Origin: Aminomonas paucivorans DSM 12260
GTDB taxonomy: Bacteria > Synergistota > Synergistia > Synergistales > Synergistaceae
Length of the DNA: 64,000 bases
NCBI RefSeq assembly: GCF_000165795.1
Contig: NZ_CM001022.1
Location: 62,001-126,000, forward strand
Direction: 5' to 3'
Program-made: the position numbers and the translations under genes
Notes under the pieces: model-generated
What the model was told of the DNA's origin: nothing
What the model saw: only the letters and a program-made list of their open reading frames with translations
Database searches by the model: none
Shown: positions 24,432 through 61,784 of the stretch, in pieces
Layout: the number at the start of each line of letters is the position of its first letter
Position numbering within the stretch: the stretch's first letter is position 1

Positions 24432-26504
24432 TCAGTTCCGGTCCTTCAGGGCCCGCAGGTTCTCCATGCCCCGTTGGTCCAGGGTGAAGCGGTTCAGCTC
24501 CTCCTTCAGGGCCTGGGCTCCCAGGCTGAGCTTCTGGGATTCCCGGGCCACCTGTTCCGACGCCTTGGCGGTCTCCTCGGTGGAGTGGCGGATGGTGTCC
24601 AGAGTGGTCACCACCTGGACGGTGGCCTGGGTCACCTGGTCGATCCCCGAGGCCATCTCCTGAGAGGAGGCGGCCTGTTCCTCCGACGTGGCGGCGATGT
24701 TCTGCATGGCCTCGTTCACCCGGGCGATCCGGTCCAGCACCTCCCGGAGTCCCTCCTGGGCCGCCTGGGCCAGGTCGCGGGTGGCTCCCAGGACCTGCCC
24801 CGTCTCCTCCGTGACCTTCATGGCGCCCCCCGTCTCCTCCTGAAGGGCTCCGATGAGGGATTCCACTTCCTTGGCGGCGCCGTTGGACTCCTCCGCCAGC
24901 TTGCGGACCTCCTCCGCCACCACCGCGAAGCCTCGCCCCGCCTCTCCCGCCCGGGCCGCCTCGATGGCGGCGTTCAGGGCCAGCAGGTTGGTCTGGTCGG
25001 CGATGCTGCGGATGGTGGAGACGAAGCCGGAGATGATGGAGACGGCCTCCGCCACCTGACGGATCCGCTCCCCCGTGGCGCGGCTCTTCTCCGTCACCTG
25101 ATCCATCTGGGCCACCATCTCGTCCATCTGCTTCTCCGCCTTTTGGGACAGGGCAGCTGTCTGGGAGGAGGCCTCCGCCCCCTCTCCCGCGGCGGCCGCG
25201 GCGTTGGCGGCGCTGCCGCTGACTTCCTCCACCCCCGCGTTGGTCTGCTGGAGGGCGGCGGAGTTGGACTGGGAGAGGGCCACCACCTGGTCCACCGAGG
25301 ACTTCACCTCCTCCATGGAGGCCACGGACTCTTCGGACAGGGCCGCCAGGGCCTCCGCGGCGGAGGAGGCCCGGTCCGACTCCTCCCGGACCCGCGCCAG
25401 GCTGGCGTGGAGTGCCACGATCATGGTCGACAGGGATCGCACCATGAGGCCGATCTCCGTCTTCTCCTCCCCCTTGGCGGCGAGCCACTTCTTGGATTCG
25501 TCGAACCGCAGGTCCAGGGAGCCCATCTGTTCCAGCACCTCCGATACCCCCCGGATGGGGCGGACGATGCTTCGCCCCAGGAGGACCATGATCCCCAGGA
25601 GGGCCAGGAGGGCCAGGGCTCCCGCCAGGAGCTGTCCCCGGGCCATGGCGTTCACCAGGGCCGTCATGGCGGTGTGGGGGAAGACGAGCCCCACCACGGG
25701 GCCGTGGGCGGTGGGGGCGAAGAAGATCCGCCGGGAAACCCCGTCGAAGGTGTAGTCCCCGTATCCCGTCTCCCGGGCCACCATGCGCCTCCCCGTGGCG
25801 GCCAGGTCCGGGGGGATGGCGGCGCTGGGCACCGTCACGTTCTCTTTGAGGACGAGGTCCCCCTTCGGGTGGGCCAGCACGACGCCCTTGGGGCCCACCA
25901 GGTAACCGAAGCCGGTGCCGAAAATCTTCTGGGACGTGACGAGCCTGGAGAGGTTCTCCAGGTCCACGTCGATGGCCAGCACCCCGAGACGCTTGCCGCT
26001 TCGGTCCGTCACCGGGGCGGCCACGGCCACCACCAGCTTCTTGCTGATCCCGTCCAGGTAGGGTTCCGTGAGCGTCACCTTGCTCGCTCGGATCGCCTCC
26101 TGGTACCAGCTCCGGCTTCGGGCGTCGTAGTCCTCCGGTTCCTGCCAGTTCGTGCCGTCCGCCAGTCTGCCGTCGCTCTCCAGGCCCATGTACACGTCCA
26201 GGACGCCCAGGGACCGGTTGCTCTCGGCGAGGCGCCCCATCAGGGGCTGCAGGGAGCCGTCGGTGAACGAGCCCTGGGCCTCCGCCAGTTCCGCGGCAGC
26301 TTCCCGGGCGCCCCGGACCACCGCCTCCAGCTTCTCGAAATACTGATCCAGCTCCCGGGTGCTGCTTTGCGCCAGCTCGGTGCCCGCGGCGATCACCTGG
26401 CGGTTCAGGGTGCTTCGGCTCTGAAGGAAGGACAGGAGGATCATGCCCCCCAGAAGCAGGGCCAGGATCCCGGTGAGGAAGAACAGCTTCGCTTTGATCG
26501 TCAT
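24432..26504 (-). CDS. Methyl-accepting chemotaxis protein with dCache sensor
   Basis: 690 residues. ATG at 26504 is 10 bases from AAGGAG; a TTG two codons earlier is too close. First helix '[19 protein letters not shown]', periplasmic dCache_1 sensor (two PAS-like lobes: '[17 protein letters not shown]' and '[20 protein letters not shown]', the latter typical of amino-acid/amine receptors), second helix about 305-330, HAMP, and a long coiled-coil signalling domain with the hairpin tip '[20 protein letters not shown]' and '[20 protein letters not shown]'. A close paralogue is at 28979-31042. Adjacent CheW suggests a dedicated signalling complex. Confidence 0.95.
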
Positions 26505-26538
26505 CGACAAGTCACTCCTTTGGCTGTCCGGTCGGTTT

Positions 26539-27006
26539 CTACGCGAGAAGGTGGGTCACGGGCTCCTGCACCGGGCGTTTCGGAAGCACCAGGGCCTCGG
26601 GGTTCAGCAGCAGAAAGGGGAGTCCCCGGTGTTCCACCACCCCCAGGATGCGCCCTCCCGGCGGGGGCCCCTCCCCGCAGCTCCGGGGAGAGGGGGCCAG
26701 GACCACCTCGTCCACCTGGTCCGCCAGGATGGCGGCTCGGTGTCCCGCCGACTCCAGCACCAGGAGGCGGAAGTCCTTCTCTGGGGGGACCCCCGGGCGG
26801 CCCGTGAGGAACCGCAGGTCCACCAGCGGGCAGAGGGCGTCGGGGTGGATCAGGGCGGAGAAGTCGGAGCTGGCCCAGTCCAGGACCTCCAGAAGGGCGT
26901 CCCGGGGGACGGCGAAGAACCCGATCCCCAGACGGAAGGGGAGGACCCACAGGACGGGAGGGATGCCTTCGGGGGCGAGGCGCCGGCGAGAGCGGGGCAT
27001 CTGCAT
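26539..27006 (-). CDS. CheW-like coupling protein
   Basis: 155 residues. ATG at 27006 has AGGAGG 8 bases upstream. The two-barrel CheW pattern is visible: '[20 protein letters not shown]', '[13 protein letters not shown]', '[20 protein letters not shown]', '[18 protein letters not shown]'. Connects the neighbouring chemoreceptor to a CheA kinase encoded elsewhere. An Arg-rich N-terminus precedes the domain. Sequence is rather divergent for CheW, so a specialised partner is possible. Confidence 0.75.
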
Positions 27007-27324
27007 GGGAACGGCCTCCTTGGGGAACGCTGCCGGAAGGAAGCGAGACGAGGAGAAGAGGGAGCGCTCACGGATCATGAGAGCATCCTATTCCCCCTAT
27101 GCAGGTCCTTTGTTGGGCAAAAGTATGGATTGTGTATGTTATGACGGTTTTCGTAGGCGCTAAGGTGGCACAAGGGGAAGCTGGGGTTGCGGGATCCGCG
27201 GGACCTCCCAGGCTTCCCGTCCCCGGGCGGGTCCAGGGATGGTCACGGAGCTCCCCCGCTCCGGAGCGGAGGTGTCCGCCGTCCCTGGCCATGGAACCGA
27301 TCCGGGTTTGGGAGGGGATGTTCC
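27007..27324. promoter_or_regulatory. 318-bp divergent region between cheW-like and regulator genes
   Basis: An AT-richer segment at 27105-27160 (containing TTGTTGGGCAAAAGTATGG and TGTGTATGTTATGA) is the likely location of both promoters. The remaining 150 bases before the regulator are GC-rich and can fold: CCAGGGA at about 27233 pairs with TCCCTGG at about 27284 around a structured interior, giving the regulator a long folded leader. No gene is evident in this gap. Confidence 0.35.
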
Positions 27325-28932
27325 ATGAGGGTGGCTTCCGTCGTCCCGACCAGGCCGCGCACGGTCTGGGTGGTGCCCCCGGAGGAGCCGGGGCCCGGCG
27401 GGGTCCCCCTCGCTCCTTGGCTGCAGCGGCTCTGCCCGGAGGGCGCCGTGGTGCCCGACGACCACGAGGCCTGGCGTCTTCTGCGGGAACGGCCCTACGA
27501 CCTGGTGGTGCTGGGGGCGTTTTCCTCCATGAGGGCCTCGTGGCTTCGCGCCCTCTCCCGGGAAGGGCGCACCCTCTCTCCCAAGGTGTTTCTCCGGGTT
27601 CGACCGGGGGAACGGGTCCCTCGGAACCTGGTGTCCCTGGTGGACGCTCGGGTTCCCTGGCAGGGGGAGTGGCGGGCCTTTGCGGAGGACGTGTTCGCAG
27701 CGTACAGCCTCTGCGAGGAGGGGCCTCCCGGGGAAGGGGAAGAGGGACACCGGGTCCGATCGGGAGGGGTGATCCTGGACTGCCGAACCCAGCGGGTCTG
27801 GTCCCGGGGGCGCTGGAACGCCCTGACCCCCCTGGAGTTCCGGCTGCTGCACCTCCTCATGTGCCATCCCGGGGTGCCCTATCCTCCCAAGGAACTGGTC
27901 TCCCGGGTCTGGGGCTACGGGGAGGAGGGGCGCAGCGACCCTCCCATCCGCTGGCATATCAAGAACCTGCGGGACAAGATCGAGCCGGATCCTTTCAACC
28001 CCCGGCTGCTTCGGACCCTCTCCCGGAGGGGGTACCTGTTCGATCCGGGCCCTTCGGGGGCGGATGTCCTCCCCTTTCCCGGGGAAAAGGCTTCGCCGGT
28101 TCGGGAAGAGAGCGGCCGAGGAGGGCTTCCCGCCGGGTGGGCGGAGTTTCTGGGCTCTCTGACGGAGGGCTTTCCCGGGGCCCTGGGGGTGACCCTCCAG
28201 GGCAAGGTCCTCTGGTGGAACGCCCAGGCGGAGCGCCTCCTGGGGATTCCCCGGGGGGAGGTCCTGGGAAGGGAGCTGCTGCCCTTTCTCCGGGAGGATC
28301 GACGGATCGCCTGGCAGGCGGGACGCTCCTGGCCTCGGGGTGCCGACGGGGAGGAGGACTGGCGCTTCGTGTTGGAGGTTCGTCGTCCCCTGGAGGAGAC
28401 GGCTCGGGTGGAGGGGGTCTTCGCGGGACGAATCTTCGGGGGGGTCTTCTTCGGGACCTGGTCCTTTGCCCCCCTGGCGGTGGAGGGGGAGGCGGATCGC
28501 CTGCGCAAGGCCTGGCGGCAAAGCCGAGGTCTCCTGCGGGCGGCTTTTCTGGCCCGGGAGATGACGGGCTGGGTTTTGAACCCCCGGAGGGAGACCCTGC
28601 TCTGGGAGGACGGGCTGCCTCGGTTTCTGGGCGTGGACCTTTCGGGGGCCCTGGAGGTCTCCCTGGCCTGCTTCCTCGACCGCTGGGTCGTCCCGAAGGA
28701 CCAGGCACTCCTGCGGCGGTTCCTCCTGGACCCTCCGGAGAAGGTCCCGTCCCTGAAAATCCGCATGAAGACCGAATCGGGACGGGACCGCCCTGTCGTT
28801 TTCTATGCCCAGCGTCTTCCCGGTGCCGAACCGGAGGAAGAGGACGCCCGGGTATGCGGGGTCTGCGCGGAGGAAAGGGGGGATGGGACCCTGATGGGAT
28901 CCGACACGGGGGGTGGTTTCGGTGGAGTCTAG
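27325..28932 (+). CDS. Winged-helix regulator with degenerate receiver-like and PAS regions
   Basis: 535 residues; ATG at 27325 has GGAGGGG 7 bases before it. Residues 1-135 look like a receiver ('TVWVVPPEEPGPG', 'RPYDLVVLGAFSSMRASWL') but the phosphoacceptor Asp position of 'DLVVLD' is Gly. Residues about 145-235 are an OmpR-type winged helix ('ALTPLEFRLLHLLMCHPG', 'SRVWGYGEEGRSDPP', 'WHIKNLRDKIEPDP', 'RRGYLF'). The C-terminal 280 residues contain a PAS-like segment ('GVTLQGKVLWWNAQAERLLG') and a second PAS-like stretch near 410-500. Likely a DNA-binding protein that senses a ligand through PAS rather than by phosphorylation. It lies between two chemoreceptor genes; a sister gene with a GAF region is at 31291. 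Confidence 0.8.
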   Translation: MRVASVVPTRPRTVWVVPPEEPGPGGVPLAPWLQRLCPEGAVVPDDHEAWRLLRERPYDLVVLGAFSSMRASWLRALSREGRTLSPKVFLRVRPGERVPRNLVSLVDARVPWQGEWRAFAEDVFAAYSLCEEGPPGEGEEGHRVRSGGVILDCRTQRVWSRGRWNALTPLEFRLLHLLMCHPGVPYPPKELVSRVWGYGEEGRSDPPIRWHIKNLRDKIEPDPFNPRLLRTLSRRGYLFDPGPSGADVLPFPGEKASPVREESGRGGLPAGWAEFLGSLTEGFPGALGVTLQGKVLWWNAQAERLLGIPRGEVLGRELLPFLREDRRIAWQAGRSWPRGADGEEDWRFVLEVRRPLEETARVEGVFAGRIFGGVFFGTWSFAPLAVEGEADRLRKAWRQSRGLLRAAFLAREMTGWVLNPRRETLLWEDGLPRFLGVDLSGALEVSLACFLDRWVVPKDQALLRRFLLDPPEKVPSLKIRMKTESGRDRPVVFYAQRLPGAEPEEEDARVCGVCAEERGDGTLMGSDTGGGFGGV

Positions 28933-28978: not shown

Positions 28979-31042
28979 TCAGGGCAGGGTCTTGAGAGCC
29001 CCTCCCTCCCGGGCATCCAGGACGAAGCGGGCCAGCTCCGCCTTGAGGGCCTGGGCCCCCAGGCTCAAGGCCTGGGACTCCTGGGCCACCTGTTCCGAAG
29101 CCTTGGCGGTCTCCTCTGTGGAATGGCGGATGGTGTCCAGGGTGCCCACCACCTGGACGGTGGCCTGGGTCACCTGATCGATCCCCGAGGCCATCTCCTG
29201 GGCCGCCGCAGCCTGTTCTTCCGACGTGGCGGCGATGTTCTGCATGGCGTCGTTCACCGTGGCGATCTGTCCCAGGGCCTGCTGGAGCCCCGCCTGGGCC
29301 GCATGGGCTTGCTCGATGGTGGTGCCCAGGAGGGTTCCCGCCTCCTCCGTGGCCACCATGGAACCCCGGGTCTCGTTCTGGAGGGAGGAAATGAGGGCCT
29401 CCACCTCCTTGGCGGCCTGTCCCGACTCCTCCGCCAGCTTGCGGACCTCCTCCGCCACCACCGCGAAGCCCCGTCCCGCCTCCCCCGCCCGGGCCGCCTC
29501 GATGGCGGCGTTCAAGGCCAGCAGGTTCGTCTGGTCGGCGATGCTCTGGATGGTGGACACGAAGCCGCTGATGGACCCCACGGACTCGGTGACCTTCCGG
29601 ATCCGTTCCCCCGAGAGCCGGGCCTTGTCCCCCGCCGCCTTCATCTGGGTCACCACCGCCTCCACCTGGGACACCGCCTCCTCCGAGAGGCTGGTGGTTC
29701 GGCCGGAGGCCTCCGCCCCTTCCGAGGCGGTCCGGGCGGCGGTGGAGGCCCCAGAGCTGACCTCCTCCACCCCCGCGTTGGTCTGCTGGAGGGCGGCGGA
29801 GTTGGACTGAGAGAGGGCCACCACCTGGTCCACCGAGGACTTCACCTCCTCCATGGAGGCCACGGATTCCTGGGAGAGGGCCGCCAGAGCCTCCGCGGAG
29901 ACGCCGGTGCGCTCTGCCTCCTCCCGGATCCGGGCGAGGCTCTCGTTGAGGGTCTCCCGGAGGCGGAGGAAGGAGTGCACCATGAGGCCGATCTCCGTCT
30001 TCTCCCCCGCCTTGGCGGCCAGCCAGCCCTTGGAAGCGTCGGGGGTGAGGTTCAGGTCCCCGATCCGCTTCAGGGTCTCCGCCATCCCCTGGATGGGGCG
30101 GACGATGCTGCGGCTCAGGAGGACGATGAGGACCAGCAGCAGGATCAGAGTGACCGCCGACGCCAGGACCTGGCTGCGGGCGATGGCGTGGACCTGAGCC
30201 ATCATGGCGGACCGGGGGAACACCATGGCCACCAGGGGGCCGTGGGCGCTGGGGGCGAAGAAGATGCGCCTCGTCTCGCCCTGGTAGGAGTAGTCCCCGA
30301 AGCCCGTCTCCCGGGCCACCATGCGCTTGCCCGTCTCGGCCTGCTGGGCGGAGACTTTGTCGTCCGGGACGGTGACGTTGACCTTCAGGACCAGGTCCTT
30401 CTGGGGATGGGCCAGCATGACCCCCTTGGCGTCGGTGAGGTAGCCGAACCCGGAGCCCAGGAGCTTCTGCGCCGTCACCAGAGCCGACAGGGCGTCCAGG
30501 TTCACCACCGCCCCCACCACCCCCAGGAGGGAGCCGTCCCGGGCCTTTACCGGCGCCACCAGGTCCACCACCAGGGTCTTGCTCACCGCGTCCAGGTAGG
30601 GGGAGGTGAGGACGGGCTTGCCCGCCTGGAGGGCCTCGCCGTACCAGCTCCGCTTGCGGGAATCCCAGTCTCCCGGTTCCGCCCAACCCGTGCCGTCCGC
30701 CAGTCGGCCGTCCGACTCCAGCCCCATGTAGAGGTCCGTCACCCCGTAGGGTTTGGCGCTCTCCAGCATCCGGCTCAGGGCGGCTTGGTAGTCGTCGTCC
30801 GAAGGGGTCTGCCGGCCCTCCCGGACCAGCAGGGCCGCCTCCCGGGCTCCCAGGACGATGGTCTCGATCTTGTCGAAGAACTGGTCCACCTCTCGGGCGC
30901 AACTCGTCGCCGTCTCCAGGCCCACCGAGTTGACCTGGTCGTTCAGGATGTTTCGGCTCTGGAAGAATACCAGCCCCGTCATGGCCGTCAGCGCCACCAC
31001 CACCCCCGCCGCAAGCCACAGGAGCTTCGCCTTGATGGTCAC
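28979..31042 (-). CDS. Methyl-accepting chemotaxis protein with dCache sensor, second paralogue
   Basis: 687 residues. GTG at 31042 has GGAGG 8 bases upstream and aligns with the start of the first paralogue ('[13 protein letters not shown]' against '[12 protein letters not shown]'); the frame is open further upstream but that sequence is AT-rich and not protein-like. Same architecture as 24432-26504: membrane helix, dCache lobes ('[16 protein letters not shown]', '[20 protein letters not shown]'), helix, HAMP, signalling domain with the identical '[17 protein letters not shown]' tip. The sensor lobes differ enough to expect a different ligand. Produced by duplication of the receptor/regulator pair. 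Confidence 0.94.
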
Positions 31043-31290
31043 TCTCCTCGCCTCCCCGACATATCTTGGATGCAATGCGTTTCTCTTGGAGAAGCATAGG
31101 GAAAAAGCGGTGCGAAAGCTGTGAGAAAGCCGTGGGGGATCTGTTGGTTTTTGGCGTCGGGCCGAAAATGGGAAAGAGGGTCGCTTTATGGTTTGCTTTG
31201 TATTTCTGGACAATAAATCCCGCAAGTGGGTTATTTTTGTGAAATAAATACCCCGTATTCCGCGATAGAATGAAAATTCGGAGAAGGAAG
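31043..31290. promoter_or_regulatory. AT-rich divergent control region with dyads
   Basis: Much more AT-rich than its surroundings from about 31100. TTATTT-TTGTG-AAATAA (31231-31247) is a perfect 6-bp dyad, and the overlapping AATAAATCCC (31212-31221) / GGGTTATT (31228-31235) can form a second, imperfect one. They lie between the second chemoreceptor and the winged-helix/GAF regulator, so they are good candidates for that regulator's binding site. Confidence 0.45.
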
Positions 31291-32711
31291 ATGGAATCGT
31301 CGATGGAAGAACCCAGGGAGCTTCGGGTGGGGGAACTGGTGTTGGACGGGAGGGGGCAGCGGGTCTGGGCGGGGGCGTGGCATGTCCTCACTCCCACGGA
31401 GTACCGGATCCTCCGGTGCCTCATGGAATCCCCCGGGACGATCTGTTCCGCCGAGGAGCTGGCGCGTCGGGTGTGGGGCTACGAGGGTCCCGGGTGCCTG
31501 CCGCCCCCTCCCCTGCGCTGGCACGTGCGCAACCTGCGCCGGAAGGTGGAGCCGGACCCGGAGTCTCCGCGGGTCCTCCGGAACCTTCCCTGGAGGGGTT
31601 ACCTCATCGACCCGGAAGGGGCAACGGGATGGGGCAAAGGGCCTCCGGAGGAACGCGAGACGTGGAGAGTCCCGAGGGCGCTTCCTCCTCTTCCCGAGAG
31701 AGAGCGGGGGGCTCGCCCGCCTCTGGCGCGGTGGGCATTCCGCCCCCGAAGGGGCACCCTGTGGCTGGACGGGGAATACCGTCGGCTCCTGGAACTGCCC
31801 GGGGAGGGAGAGCTGGAGATGGACCTGGGGGGGTTTCTGGAGCGCCACGTGTGCCCGGAGGATCGAGCGGGGGCGTGGGGGTTCCTTTCCCTCCCCCAAG
31901 GGGAGGGAAAGGAAGGGCGCAGGGAGGGGGAGTACCGGCTCGTCACGGCGGAGGAAAACCTGGTTCGCCTGTCCCATTGGGCTTGGACGCGGTGGAGCGC
32001 AGGGGGACGGTTGGTGCAGGCCTACGGGGCGAGCCAGCTCCTGGTGCGCGGGGAAGCGTCGGAAGGACAGGACGGGGTGTCGGTGCGGGACGCCCTGGCG
32101 ATCCTGGCGGAGGTGGGGGGGCGTTTCCCCGCTCGGGGAGGCCCGGAGCTGGTGGGGCGGGTCTTCCAGGCCCTGGGGTGCTGTCTGGGAGCCTCTTCGG
32201 GCCTGTGGCTCGACTTCCTTCCGGGGAAGAGGATTCGGGTCCGTTCCCACTGGGGGAATTTTTCCCTCTTGCCGGAGGAGGGGCTTCTTTTCGTGTCTCC
32301 CCACGTCCCCTGGCTGCGTAGCCTGCGTCGGGGGGAGCCGGTGATCCTGGACTCCTTCGGGGGGCCTCGGCCCTCCTCCTCCCTGGGGCGACGGTTCACC
32401 GGGGACGGAAACCGGGCCAGCCTGGCTCTGCCCATCCCCTCCTCCGCAAAGGCGGTTCGGGGGTTCTTCCTCCTGGCCTGGGAGGGGGGGAGCGGATCTG
32501 GGACGAAAGCGAAAGGGCGGTGCTCCGCCTCCTGGCGGGCTGGGCGGGGCGTATGGGATCCCTGTCCCCCCGAAGACCCCGTCCCGAGTCGATCCACCCC
32601 GAAACGTCCTGGGGGCTCCCCTCGGAGCCCCCAGGACGCTCGTCTTCCGATCCCTCCCGGCTTCCCCCGAAGGGGGCTGGGGGAAAGGTCCTTCGTTCCC
32701 AGGGAACCTAG
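31291..32711 (+). pseudogene. Winged-helix regulator with C-terminal GAF region, frameshifted at a G run
   Basis: ATG at 31291 has GGAG 7 bases upstream; an ATG at 31270 is possible. Residues 10-110 are an OmpR-type DNA-binding domain ('[19 protein letters not shown]', 'ARRVWGYEGPG', 'WHVRNLRRKVEPDP', 'WRGYLIDPE'), without a receiver before it. The second half ends in a GAF-like region ('DALAILAEVGGRFPARGG', 'ALPIPSSAKAVRGFFLLAWE'). The frame is lost at seven G residues, 32484-32490. One more G restores 'ERIWDESERAVLRLLAGWAG', the usual end of a GAF domain, and leads to a TAG at 32709 that overlaps the convergent gene's stop by CTAG. Either a real frameshift or a homopolymer sequencing error. 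Sister of the regulator at 27325. Confidence 0.75.
32605..32638. terminator. Perfect 15-bp hairpin near the end of the frameshifted regulator gene
   Basis: 15-base arms at 32605-32619 and 32624-32638 match perfectly around a CCTC loop. It lies inside the last 40 codons of the repaired regulator frame, 70 bases before the convergent stops, and is the same size and type as the hairpin at 24385. Possibly a bidirectional terminator; no T run. Confidence 0.5.
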
Positions 32712-34438
32712 GGGTTCCGGGAGGAGATCCAGCGTCCCAGGGTGGCCTGCATGGCCGGGCTCAGGGGGACCACCAGCTCCGCGTTGGAAACCCCCGTGGG
32801 CAGAGCGGGGAGGTCGTTCTGGAAAAGCTGCTGGGCCGCCACGCCGTACCCCCGGGACAGGGCCGCGGGGGTTCCCTCCCGGACCGCGGGGTCCACGTTG
32901 GTGGCCAGGATCGAAAGGGTCTGGTCGCTGTTGGCGACGATCTCGAAGGTTCGGAACTGCTGCGGGAAATCCCTCAGGGACGACGTCTCCACCTGCCAGA
33001 ACCCCCGCTCCGGCTGCGTGGAGTCCGGGGAGGGGAACGGGGTGATCGTGTTGAAATGGCGATGTCCCGCCACCCACAGGATCAGGTTCGGGTATCGGTG
33101 AAGCGTGGCGATGAGCTGGGCCTCCGTGACGTAGGCCCGAGACCACCAACCGTCCAAGGCCCCCGGAGGGCACACGCCGATGGGGATATGGGCGGCGATG
33201 ATCATGAGCTTCCCCTGGCTCTGTCCCTCGTCCAGCTCGCGGACCAGCCACTCGTAGCGCTCCTTGTCGAGGGAACCGTGGCCGTAGCCTTGGTCGAAGA
33301 CGTCGTCTTCCCGCTGGGTATCGTCCAGCGCGATGACCTTGAGGGGCACGTCCGACCGGGGCTCGAAGCTGTAGCAGGCAAAGCCCGTCTGGACGGAGGA
33401 CGACGGGAAGCCGTGCCCCTTGGGGCTCCCGGAGGTCTTGAAGAACTCCGCGAGCCACTCCTTTCGCGTGAGGGAGCGACGGTTCGCATCGGCGGCCAGC
33501 ACCTTCGGCGGGACGGGAAAGTCGCGGGACGCCCCGGCGCCGAAGACCGCGCCGTCCAGCGTCCGGCCGTCGATGGCCCCCATGTAGTAGTCCCGCTTGT
33601 CGATGCCGTCGGGGCGGTAGAAAACCTCCTGCCAGGTTCCCAGGGCCAGCAGGGGCTCTCCGGTATAGATCCCCCGAAGGTAGTCGTTCACGGGGGAGGA
33701 GCCGATCCAGAAATGGTCGTGGTTTCCGATCACCTGGTACCAGGGGATCGACGGAGCGAGCCCCGGTGCCTGGAAGGAATCCTGGTAATCGTTCAGGGGG
33801 CCCGGGTTCGGATCGTCCTTCACCCCGGAATCGGGGGTGATGCGTCCCCCGTCGAGGACATCGATGTACCACCGAAGCTCGTTGTACTGCGTGTTGTTGC
33901 AGGCATCTCCCAGGGAGAGGGCGAAGTCGAAGGGCTTCCGGCGGTGCAGCGCGTTGGCGGTCTGTACGGCGGCGTCGAGGACCTGGGTCGTACAGAGCAT
34001 CACGGGGGAATACCCCGACGAAAGCCCCCCCTTGTAGCCGTAGGTGATGGCCTGACTGGGGGACTCCTTGTCGGAGATATGGATGTCCGTGATGGTGAAG
34101 AAATGAAGCAACCGTCCCCTGCGGACGGCGGCATCCGGGTACCCCGTCGGCATGAGGTCCAGGCGTTTTTCCAAGGCCATGCCGGGGCCGTAGTGCCAGG
34201 TCCCATAGCCGTTCTCTCGATATTTGGAAACCTCGTAGGGGAAGATGGTGTCCCCGCTTTGGGGTACCCCGTCGGGCACCACGGTTCTGGCGGCGGTGGT
34301 CTCCACCTGGGGGTCGATGGGGTACCCCTGGGAGGTGCTCTGCCCCGAAGAGCCGCACCCCGAGGACAACCAGACCGACAGGAGCAGCAGCAACAGCCAG
34401 GGAAGCGTTCTTCGTCGCGTAGGCCTTTTCAAGGTCAT
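32708..34438 (-). CDS. Exported lipoprotein metallophosphoesterase, TIGR03768-like
   Basis: 576 residues. Lipoprotein signal: '[16 protein letters not shown]' with the lipobox Cys at about residue 28. Calcineurin-type phosphoesterase motifs follow: '[13 protein letters not shown]' (D-x-H), '[11 protein letters not shown]' (G-D), '[11 protein letters not shown]' (GNH[D/E]), '[10 protein letters not shown]' and '[13 protein letters not shown]' (GHxH). Length and the insert around residues 190-330 fit the TIGR03768 (RPA4764) family. It would hydrolyse a phosphoester outside the inner membrane; substrate unknown. Monocistronic, convergent with the frameshifted regulator. Confidence 0.87.
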
Positions 34439-59777: not shown

Positions 59778-61784
59778 ATGAGTAGCTGGCGCGATCAAAT
59801 CCTGGGGGAATTCACCCCGAAGGTCGTCCGTTTGACCCTGGTGGCCGATCCGGACGGACTCCTCCTCGAAGAAGGGATTCTCGAAGGCATCCGCGAGCGG
59901 GGATTCGAGCTGATCCCGTTTGAAGATCCCATCGCGTTCCGTTACGCTTACGAGTCGAAGTTCCGCTCCCGCTGGGACCGGGGCGAGCACACGGACCTGG
60001 TCGTCGTGTTGCGCTCCCAGGGCAGCGACCTCGGAGGGGTGCCCTACGACCTCCTTCAGGCAGGGCGCAGGCTTTCCTTCAGCCTGGGCGACCTCTTCCC
60101 GAATCTGAGCTATCCGGTTGTGGCTGCTTTGGATCGCGGGGATCTGGACGCTTTGTATGAGGCGCAACAACGGCATGTCCCCGGTCTCCTGGGCGAGAAC
60201 GCGACGAAGGAGTTCGTCCTCCGGCACGTCTTTGAAATCGCGCCCGAGCTGATCAAACAGCCATCGGACCTCCTGCGGGTGCTGCTGCGTCGTCACTACC
60301 GCGGACAGAGAATCCCGGCGGATCTCGATGGGCGCTTCCTCCAGCTTCTGCGCCAGAACAACGTCTTCGACGATTGGCCCCTCGAGACGCTGGTCCCGGA
60401 TCGGGAGGTTTTTTTCGCCTTTCTCCAGGAGCGCTGGCCGGTTTTCCTGGATCGGGAAGCCGCCATCGGGACATCCAGGGTTTGCCAAAAGAAAGATCCC
60501 CAGGAGTTCTCCATCCACGGGCCTGTCGCACTTCCCTTCGACCATCATGATGTCCGGGTCTACATCGACAATCTCTTCGTTGAGGGGCTGCTGCACTCCG
60601 TTCCCCACGAGCATGCGGACACCCTGTCGAAAACGTGGGTGGCCATTGGAGTTCGGACCGTTCCCTTCGAAGACAGGTTCCGTCGTCTGGGCAAGCTGAT
60701 CGACAATCTGGAGGTGTCCATTCCGGCCGAGGACGCGAAGCACACGGATTGGTTCCACTTTGCCCGCGGATGGGCGGAGGCGATCCTGCTGGCGCACGAT
60801 CCGGCCGAGGCGATTCCCGAAATGACGAGCGAACGCATCCGGGCCTTGCAGGCACAGGTGGATGCCGGTTTTGCAGGTTGGCTCTTTAAGAGGTATGCGG
60901 GGCTTGTCAATCTGCCACCGGTGCCTCCGGTCATGTTGCATCACCTCCCGCGGTTTCTTGCCCGCCAAATGGGAGAAGACCGCACCGCCAAGATGGCACT
61001 GATCGTGGTGGACGGCCTTGCCTTGGACCAATGGCTGGTGGTCCGGGAAGCACTTGCCTCAAAACAGCCAGGACTGCGATTCCGAGAGCAGGCAGTCTTT
61101 GCCTGGGCCCCGTCTCTCACCTCTGTCTCGCGACAGGCGACCTTCTCTGGCAAGGCGCCGCTCTTTTTCCCGGACAGTATCCAGACCACGGACAAGGAGC
61201 CATCTCTCTGGGCGCAGTTTTGGGCGGATCAGGGGCTTATGCCCCATGAGGTTGTCTACCTCAAAGGGCTGGGGGACGCTGGGCTGGAGAACCTTTCCGA
61301 GGCGCTTTCTCATCCCCGGGCAAGGGTCGCCGGGCTGGTTGTGGACAAGGTCGACAAGATCATGCACGGGATGGAAATGGGTACCGCCGGGATGCACAAC
61401 CAGGTGTGCCAATGGGCCAAGCAGCCGTACCTGAACGCACTCCTCAATTTGCTCTTGGATCGAGGTTTTCGCGTCTATCTGACTTCCGATCACGGCAACG
61501 TAGAGGCTATCGGTTGTGGTCGTCCCTCCGAAGGGGCTGTGGCGGATCTCCGCGGAGAACGAGTCCGCGTCTATCCCGACGCGGTCCTTCGCGGCAAAGT
61601 GAAGGAGCGCTTCCCTGCGGCGTTGGAATGGGGAACCGCGGGGCTCCCGGAGGATTTCTTTGCTCTGCTGGCCCCTGCTCGGCAGGCGTTTGTCCAAGAA
61701 AGGCAGCACACGGTGAGCCACGGAGGGGTTTCCGTGGAGGAACTCATCGTCCCTCTTGTCCAGATCGAGAGGCGGAGCGAATGA
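59778..61784 (+). CDS. pglZ: BREX-3 phosphatase-domain protein PglZ
   Basis: 668 residues, ATG at 59778 (GTGs at 59769 and 59772 also in frame). Alkaline-phosphatase-superfamily core: 'KMALIVVDGLALDQWLVVRE' (about 415), 'FAWAPSLTSVSRQATFSGKA', 'FRVYLTSDHGNVEAIGCGRP' (metal ligands, about 570), and the end 'TVSHGGVSVEELIVPLVQI'. PglZ occurs in all BREX types. It overlaps the next gene by ATGA. Returns to moderately high GC after the DUF3800 gene. Confidence 0.93.
   Translation: MSSWRDQILGEFTPKVVRLTLVADPDGLLLEEGILEGIRERGFELIPFEDPIAFRYAYESKFRSRWDRGEHTDLVVVLRSQGSDLGGVPYDLLQAGRRLSFSLGDLFPNLSYPVVAALDRGDLDALYEAQQRHVPGLLGENATKEFVLRHVFEIAPELIKQPSDLLRVLLRRHYRGQRIPADLDGRFLQLLRQNNVFDDWPLETLVPDREVFFAFLQERWPVFLDREAAIGTSRVCQKKDPQEFSIHGPVALPFDHHDVRVYIDNLFVEGLLHSVPHEHADTLSKTWVAIGVRTVPFEDRFRRLGKLIDNLEVSIPAEDAKHTDWFHFARGWAEAILLAHDPAEAIPEMTSERIRALQAQVDAGFAGWLFKRYAGLVNLPPVPPVMLHHLPRFLARQMGEDRTAKMALIVVDGLALDQWLVVREALASKQPGLRFREQAVFAWAPSLTSVSRQATFSGKAPLFFPDSIQTTDKEPSLWAQFWADQGLMPHEVVYLKGLGDAGLENLSEALSHPRARVAGLVVDKVDKIMHGMEMGTAGMHNQVCQWAKQPYLNALLNLLLDRGFRVYLTSDHGNVEAIGCGRPSEGAVADLRGERVRVYPDAVLRGKVKERFPAALEWGTAGLPEDFFALLAPARQAFVQERQHTVSHGGVSVEELIVPLVQIERRSE

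Follow-up and report, generated by a model that had tools for sequence, protein, structure and literature searches.

Organization of the locus

We analysed a stretch of 64,000 nucleotides (the window; GC content 67.9%) that is part of the 2,630,170-base single-contig genome of Aminomonas paucivorans DSM 12260. Within the window two genes for regulators with a winged-helix domain, here called REG1 and REG2, alternate with two chemoreceptor genes (Table 1). REG1 runs from an ATG to a stop codon at 28930-28932 and its product comprises, in this order: a degenerate receiver-like domain, an OmpR-type winged helix, a PAS domain and a PAS-like stretch. The gene is divergent from that for chemoreceptor 1 and from a gene between the two that encodes a CheW-like protein (PF01584, 31.3 bits, cut-off 23.5), and REG2 is likewise divergent from the gene for chemoreceptor 2. 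Both chemoreceptors carry dCache and MCPsignal domains over cut-off; the HAMP match of chemoreceptor 1 is below it (21.4 bits, cut-off 25). They are 64% identical over 678 amino acids, their genes lie 2.5 kb apart, and the start of chemoreceptor 2 was set by its likeness to chemoreceptor 1. In the whole genome 28 MCPsignal matches were counted.

Table 1. Features of the REG1-REG2 locus, with positions in the window and the type of evidence for each.
Feature	Position	Strand	Evidence
Chemoreceptor 1 (dCache, HAMP-like, MCPsignal)	24432..26510	-	Pfam
CheW-like protein gene, divergent from REG1	26539..27078	-	PF01584, E 1.7e-7
REG1, 535-aa protein	27325..28932	+	Open reading frame and translation, codon preference
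REG1 receiver-like domain, residues 1-135	27325..27730	+	hhalign with controls, MAFFT alignment, AlphaFold2; no Pfam/NCBIfam match
REG1 OmpR/PhoB-type winged-helix DNA-binding domain, residues ~143-240	27751..28044	+	PF00486, PDB matches, AlphaFold2
REG1 PAS domain 1, residues 285-355	28177..28389	+	PF00989, PF08448
REG1 putative PAS-like region 2, residues ~405-515	28537..28869	+	BLASTP with REG2
Chemoreceptor 2 (dCache, HAMP, MCPsignal), divergent from REG2	28979..31042	-	Pfam
REG2: winged helix, PAS-like, GAF-like; no N-terminal domain	31270..32490	+	PF00486, GAF_2 below cut-off, identity to REG1

With three neighbouring genes as the training set, codon preference favoured the REG1 frame over its five alternatives in 12 of the 13 intervals of 150 nt from 27385 on, among them those that hold residues 21-140; the single exception, at 27985, falls inside the winged helix. 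Because its frame is favoured from 27385, we take the N-terminal domain to be translated, and the same 12 of 13 intervals led us to reject the alternative that the N-terminus is spurious and that translation really begins close to the winged helix, as it does in REG2. The first ~20 residues are uncertain, since the frame was not favoured in the three intervals before 27385.

The initial annotation, made from the sequence of REG1, was silent on the sister gene REG2, which lacks the N-terminal domain, and on the paired chemoreceptor genes. The winged helix of REG2 (PF00486, E 2e-14) is 54% identical to that of REG1 (52% in a second comparison), and the two regulators are paralogues, as are chemoreceptors 1 and 2. 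The open frame of REG2 starts only nine codons upstream of its ATG and thus leaves no room for an N-terminal domain. At the C-terminus a GAF_2 match below cut-off was obtained (E 0.015; 0.0031 when this piece was searched alone). The GAF-like end meets a run of seven G (32484-32490) and an apparent remainder of a GAF domain is found in another frame, so that either a frameshift or an assembly error near 32484 is suggested. Inside this continuation, ~70 bases before the stop of its frame, lies a long GC-rich inverted repeat (32605-32638, CGTCCTGGGGGCTCC and GGAGCCCCCAGGACG) that looks terminator-like by eye, and downstream of REG2, on the opposite strand, a metallophosphatase-like gene was found (32708-34438; PF00149, 23.6 bits, cut-off 21.5).

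The simplest reading of the alternating genes is a duplicated regulator-chemoreceptor unit. The pairing is not general: in a third, distant chemoreceptor the sensor part is nearly as similar, at 54% identity compared with 56% in the neighbouring one, and no winged-helix gene, of the five that the genome contains, adjoins it. The regions upstream of REG1 and REG2 share no exact DNA word of at least 10 bases and one of 9, and so offer no direct evidence that the two regulators act on common or nearby targets. A promoter and terminator scan of 26950-27400 returned nothing.

The winged helix and the PAS parts

Trans_reg_C (PF00486) matched REG1 residues 166-239 with 62 bits (E 5.8e-17, cut-off 26.2), the AlphaFold2 model has a pLDDT of at least 90 over most of the winged helix, and structural matches to this domain reach a Z of 17.9. 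Behind it, PF00989 matched residues 285-325 (28.7 bits, over the cut-off of 22.6) and PF08448 (PAS_4) residues 289-355, at 22.0 bits when the entire protein was searched and 23.5 bits when the C-terminal piece was searched (cut-off 23.1). Residues ~405-515 matched no Pfam model at E ≤ 10; BLASTP aligned this region with the part of REG2 behind the winged helix (40% over 55 residues, E 2e-7), and from this similarity and a reading of the sequence both stretches would be PAS-like. The OmpR-type winged helix and the first of the PAS-like regions that the initial annotation had described were thus recovered by Pfam, and the second was not. A cysteine motif of the LOV type was not seen by eye in the REG1 translation.

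The remark that it is uncommon for PAS regions to come after a winged helix is borne out within the Synergistota to the extent covered here. Of 185 genomes of the phylum, 176 contain winged-helix matches at E ≤ 0.001, and among the matches listed for these genomes the 24 checked open frames of at least 287 amino acids from other Synergistota genomes, which do not form a census, all encode ordinary regulators that end at most 27 residues past the winged helix (24/24). The order found in REG1 is therefore rare in the phylum to that extent. In A. paucivorans itself, the three winged-helix genes besides REG1 and REG2 encode canonical regulators made up of a receiver and a winged helix, whose C-tails measure 6-10 residues; in each of the three loci, a gene that we interpret as a histidine kinase comes next. 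The whole-genome searches placed none of 31 HATPase_c matches (E ≤ 0.001) inside the window, the nearest one lying just outside it (61389-61649 of the contig) and below cut-off, and none of 39 PF00072 places, so that the N-terminus of REG1 is absent from the latter. For an OmpR/PhoB response regulator a histidine kinase gene close by is usual, although not required. As neither search lists a kinase or receiver domain within the window, REG1 is likely to be an orphan regulator.

Relatives were sought with the separate parts of the proteins in the 185 Synergistota genomes: i) the N-terminus of REG1 (E ≤ 1) gave matches in 51 genomes, none of them, its own gene aside, better than 0.0029; ii) the C-terminal part of REG1 (E ≤ 0.1) gave matches in 27, the best besides itself being 4.1e-4 over PAS domain 1; and iii) the C-terminal part of REG2 (E ≤ 0.01) gave matches in two, itself and one at 0.0089. 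There are no convincing relatives of the N- or C-terminal parts of REG1 in these 185 genomes. The whole of REG1 matched in 40 of 52 genomes of the family, through the winged helix. No relative was confirmed by two pattern-based genome scans (one with REG1, one with the alignment of the REG1 and REG2 winged helices), which also reach other phyla, see only sequences with their short peptides and possibly omit records near the own genome. A literature search for the domain arrangement, covering full texts under an open licence, showed it in none of the titles and abstract openings listed.

The N-terminal domain of REG1 as a probable degenerate receiver

The N-terminus had been described as receiver-like, with a glycine instead of the aspartate in the expected 'DLVVLD'. 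Searches of Pfam and NCBIfam (E ≤ 10) gave no match for residues 1-145, and a profile-profile comparison was made with controls. The hhalign score of residues 1-137 against a profile of 10 OmpR-type regulators was 25.1 (probability 10.9), which was reached by 1 of 150 shuffles and by none of 92 natural pieces (overlapping pieces from four neighbour proteins and the C-terminal part of REG1); against a profile of 81 OmpR-type regulators it was 27.7 (probability 29.35), reached by none of the same 150 shuffles and none of the 92 pieces. The two alignments pair REG1 residues 43-96 with profile positions 36-89 and residues 31-66 with 24-59, and this common offset of 7 puts Gly64, the last residue of 'DLVVLG' (59-64), on the phosphoacceptor aspartate of receivers. 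A MAFFT alignment of REG1 with 51 regulators runs end-to-end with short gaps only and places Gly64 likewise. In it the receiver acidic pair corresponds to Glu20/Glu21, the Thr/Ser to Arg91 and the Lys to Glu115, and Trp112 occupies the aromatic position three residues before the Lys. Of the conserved receiver set REG1 would thus keep acidic residues at the positions of the pair, but Asp, Thr/Ser and Lys are all replaced. The reported change of the aspartate to glycine agrees with both alignments, and the loss of the phosphoacceptor is supported, provided that the receiver register is right.

Two other sequence tests gave no such signal. The glocal profile score of the N-terminus is not above controls (4 of 200 shuffles reach it), several later segments of REG1 score about equally and one of them better, and the score was dropped as support for a receiver. 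For 5 of the 81 regulators, BLAST alignments of the winged helix extended into the N-terminus; among the controls, 22 of the 200 shuffles and 11 of the 92 natural pieces did as well or better. Alignments starting at residues 34-60 that had come up in the family-genome search were dropped as receiver evidence as well, the extension being no better than chance in this control, for which the 81 regulators form a set different from that of the family-genome search.

Structure prediction, which had been proposed as a check, does return a fold in receiver order for residues 1-135, though a partial one that relied on receiver sequences; the outcome that had been named as refuting, a prediction lacking the receiver fold, thus did not arise. 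Fed with the MAFFT receiver alignment, AlphaFold2 gave a model of mean pLDDT 72.9 and pTM 0.56 with the elements β1 13-16, α1 29-36, β2 41-43, α2 46-55, β3 60-63, α3 70-79, β4 87-89 and α5 117-131. The pLDDT is ~60-84 over residues 11-90, below 50 for residues 91-94 and 96-114 (α4, β5) and near 50 for α5. The model leans to a receiver fold because its input alignment consists of receivers, and the model made without an alignment was uninformative (pLDDT 38.6). Whole response regulators align with residues ~7-243 of the model at a large rmsd (MtrA, 7.9 over 202 residues); since the winged helix drives these matches, they say little on residues 1-135 alone.

The residues might also have another origin than a receiver: in front of an ordinary winged helix they could form a small alpha/beta domain without kinship to receivers, a domain particular to the lineage or a poorly folded extension. 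The lack of any Pfam or NCBIfam match, the two of three sequence tests that do no better than controls, the single-sequence AlphaFold2 model without confidence and the absence of a convincing N-terminal relative from the 185 Synergistota genomes would all fit such an origin. Nevertheless we hold it to be rather unlikely, as the hhalign signal is in receiver register and above controls, the segment has the length of a receiver and precedes the winged helix as a receiver does, and the elements of the alignment-fed model follow the receiver order. We therefore regard a degenerate receiver as the best reading: residues 1-135 probably descend from a receiver, as judged from alignments and a model. 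The description as receiver-like is retained in part, for the register and a partial, receiver-fed model; recognition by receiver models was not obtained. We do not file REG1 as a pseudo-receiver, because such recognition is a defining feature of that class and was tested and not found.

Proposed mode of action

If the register holds, the missing aspartate excludes phosphotransfer to the N-terminal domain, and REG2 keeps the winged helix and the PAS-like part but not the N-terminus; both considerations point to the PAS part as the place of signal entry. That control would be exerted by a ligand or by protein contact and not by aspartate phosphorylation is a reasonable proposal. The chances seem to us about even that REG1 is an orphan, one-component-like regulator derived from an OmpR/PhoB response regulator, with a dead receiver, a signal received on the PAS side and targets in the chemoreceptor region. 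In such a protein the degenerate receiver would no longer take a phosphoryl group and would serve at most as a surface for dimerisation or contact. The intact winged helix would bind DNA, and a signal that enters via the PAS part behind it would alter the pairing of two winged helices on the DNA. REG2 would be a paralogue from which the receiver is entirely gone. The likeliest targets would be the CheW and chemoreceptor genes beside REG1 and the chemoreceptor gene beside REG2.

Two other modes of control were weighed against sensing by the PAS part. The degenerate receiver could form a permanent dimer, as reported for ChxR and HP1043, with the activity of REG1 set by its amount and the PAS part adding contacts only. 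Atypical regulators do often dimerise without phosphorylation (stated in a part of PMC12632262), and no partner kinase is listed in the window. This constitutive action nonetheless appears distinctly unlikely, given that a good PAS domain and a PAS-like stretch kept in REG2 point to sensing, and that α4/β5, in the OmpR-type family part of the usual dimer surface (PMC12632262), is the least receiver-like region of the model. Alternatively, pairing might be controlled by an intermolecular disulfide through Cys130 in the linker or Cys37 between α1 and β2, by analogy with the redox cysteines described for the linker of RitR and the α1-β2 loop of Hp1021 (in a part of PMC12632262). These are the only cysteines in residues 1-140 and they lie in or near the regions named there, but the correspondence of positions is approximate and hinges on the alignment used, the searches gave no relative in which the cysteines could be seen to be conserved, and REG2 has no such N-terminal domain. 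Redox control is accordingly the least probable of the options and would surprise us.

We prefer, as said, entry of the signal through the PAS part. A wider history could be built on it, in which REG1 and REG2 are two frozen stages on the way from two- to one-component regulation: sensors were added, the receiver active site and the α4-β5 face were lost (REG1) or the receiver was deleted (REG2), and each regulator was duplicated with the chemoreceptor gene under its control, joining transcription and chemosensing in a single unit. This history is tentative and we consider it doubtful.

The locus brings together in one genome a receiver-like remnant too worn for models and a remnant-free sister with the same type of winged helix, and the pair offers a modest snapshot of how a receiver switch may be lost. 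A 2025 review (in a part of PMC12632262) describes the switching of bacterial pseudo-receivers as a mystery. A comparison of REG1 with REG2, or of intact REG1 with a form that lacks the first 138 residues, would ask what the remnant still does. If the regulators control the adjoining chemoreceptors, transcription would be linked to chemoreceptor supply, in a species that is described, in a section of PMC3035310, as non-motile though motility genes are present.

Comparison with known systems

Aspartate-less receivers with OmpR-type outputs number 609, or 2% of that architecture, and glycine replaces the aspartate in 11% of all aspartate-less receivers (figures given in a part of PMC4395418). 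Pseudo-receivers make up ~6% of the bacterial receivers in a representative set, and the known or proposed ways in which they are controlled include constitutive dimers, protein contacts, covalent change, disulfides and ligand binding (passages of PMC12632262). The OmpR-family members of this kind, RitR, ChxR, HP1043 and GlnR, resemble REG1 in having a domain in receiver order without a working phosphoacceptor before an OmpR-type winged helix, and the structures of RitR and GlnR are among the fold matches of REG1. Unlike in these proteins, receiver models miss the domain in REG1, its Thr and Lys positions differ as well, and PAS parts lie behind the winged helix.

The winged helix itself is best matched by those of the MtrA/RpaA/RpaB type (RpaA 1.5e-13 and MtrA 9.8e-10 by PDB sequence search; RpaB and MtrA also in a second search). 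Regulators of that type have an intact receiver and a chain that ends at the winged helix, and differ from REG1 in both respects. One-component regulators of the CadC/ToxR and SARP types lead with an OmpR-type winged helix and have a membrane span or other parts at the C-terminus. REG1 shares with them a winged helix ahead of a sensing part in one chain, and the ToxR winged helix is among the structural matches of the REG1 model; REG1 differs in the PAS nature of the part behind the winged helix and in the receiver-like remnant in front. Closest at hand is REG2, which has in common with REG1 the winged helix, a PAS-like stretch and an adjoining chemoreceptor gene, and is distinguished from it by the missing N-terminal domain and the GAF-like C-terminus. 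New features of REG1 are that its winged helix is followed by PAS parts, that its receiver-like domain has decayed so far and that a receiver-less sister lies next to it.
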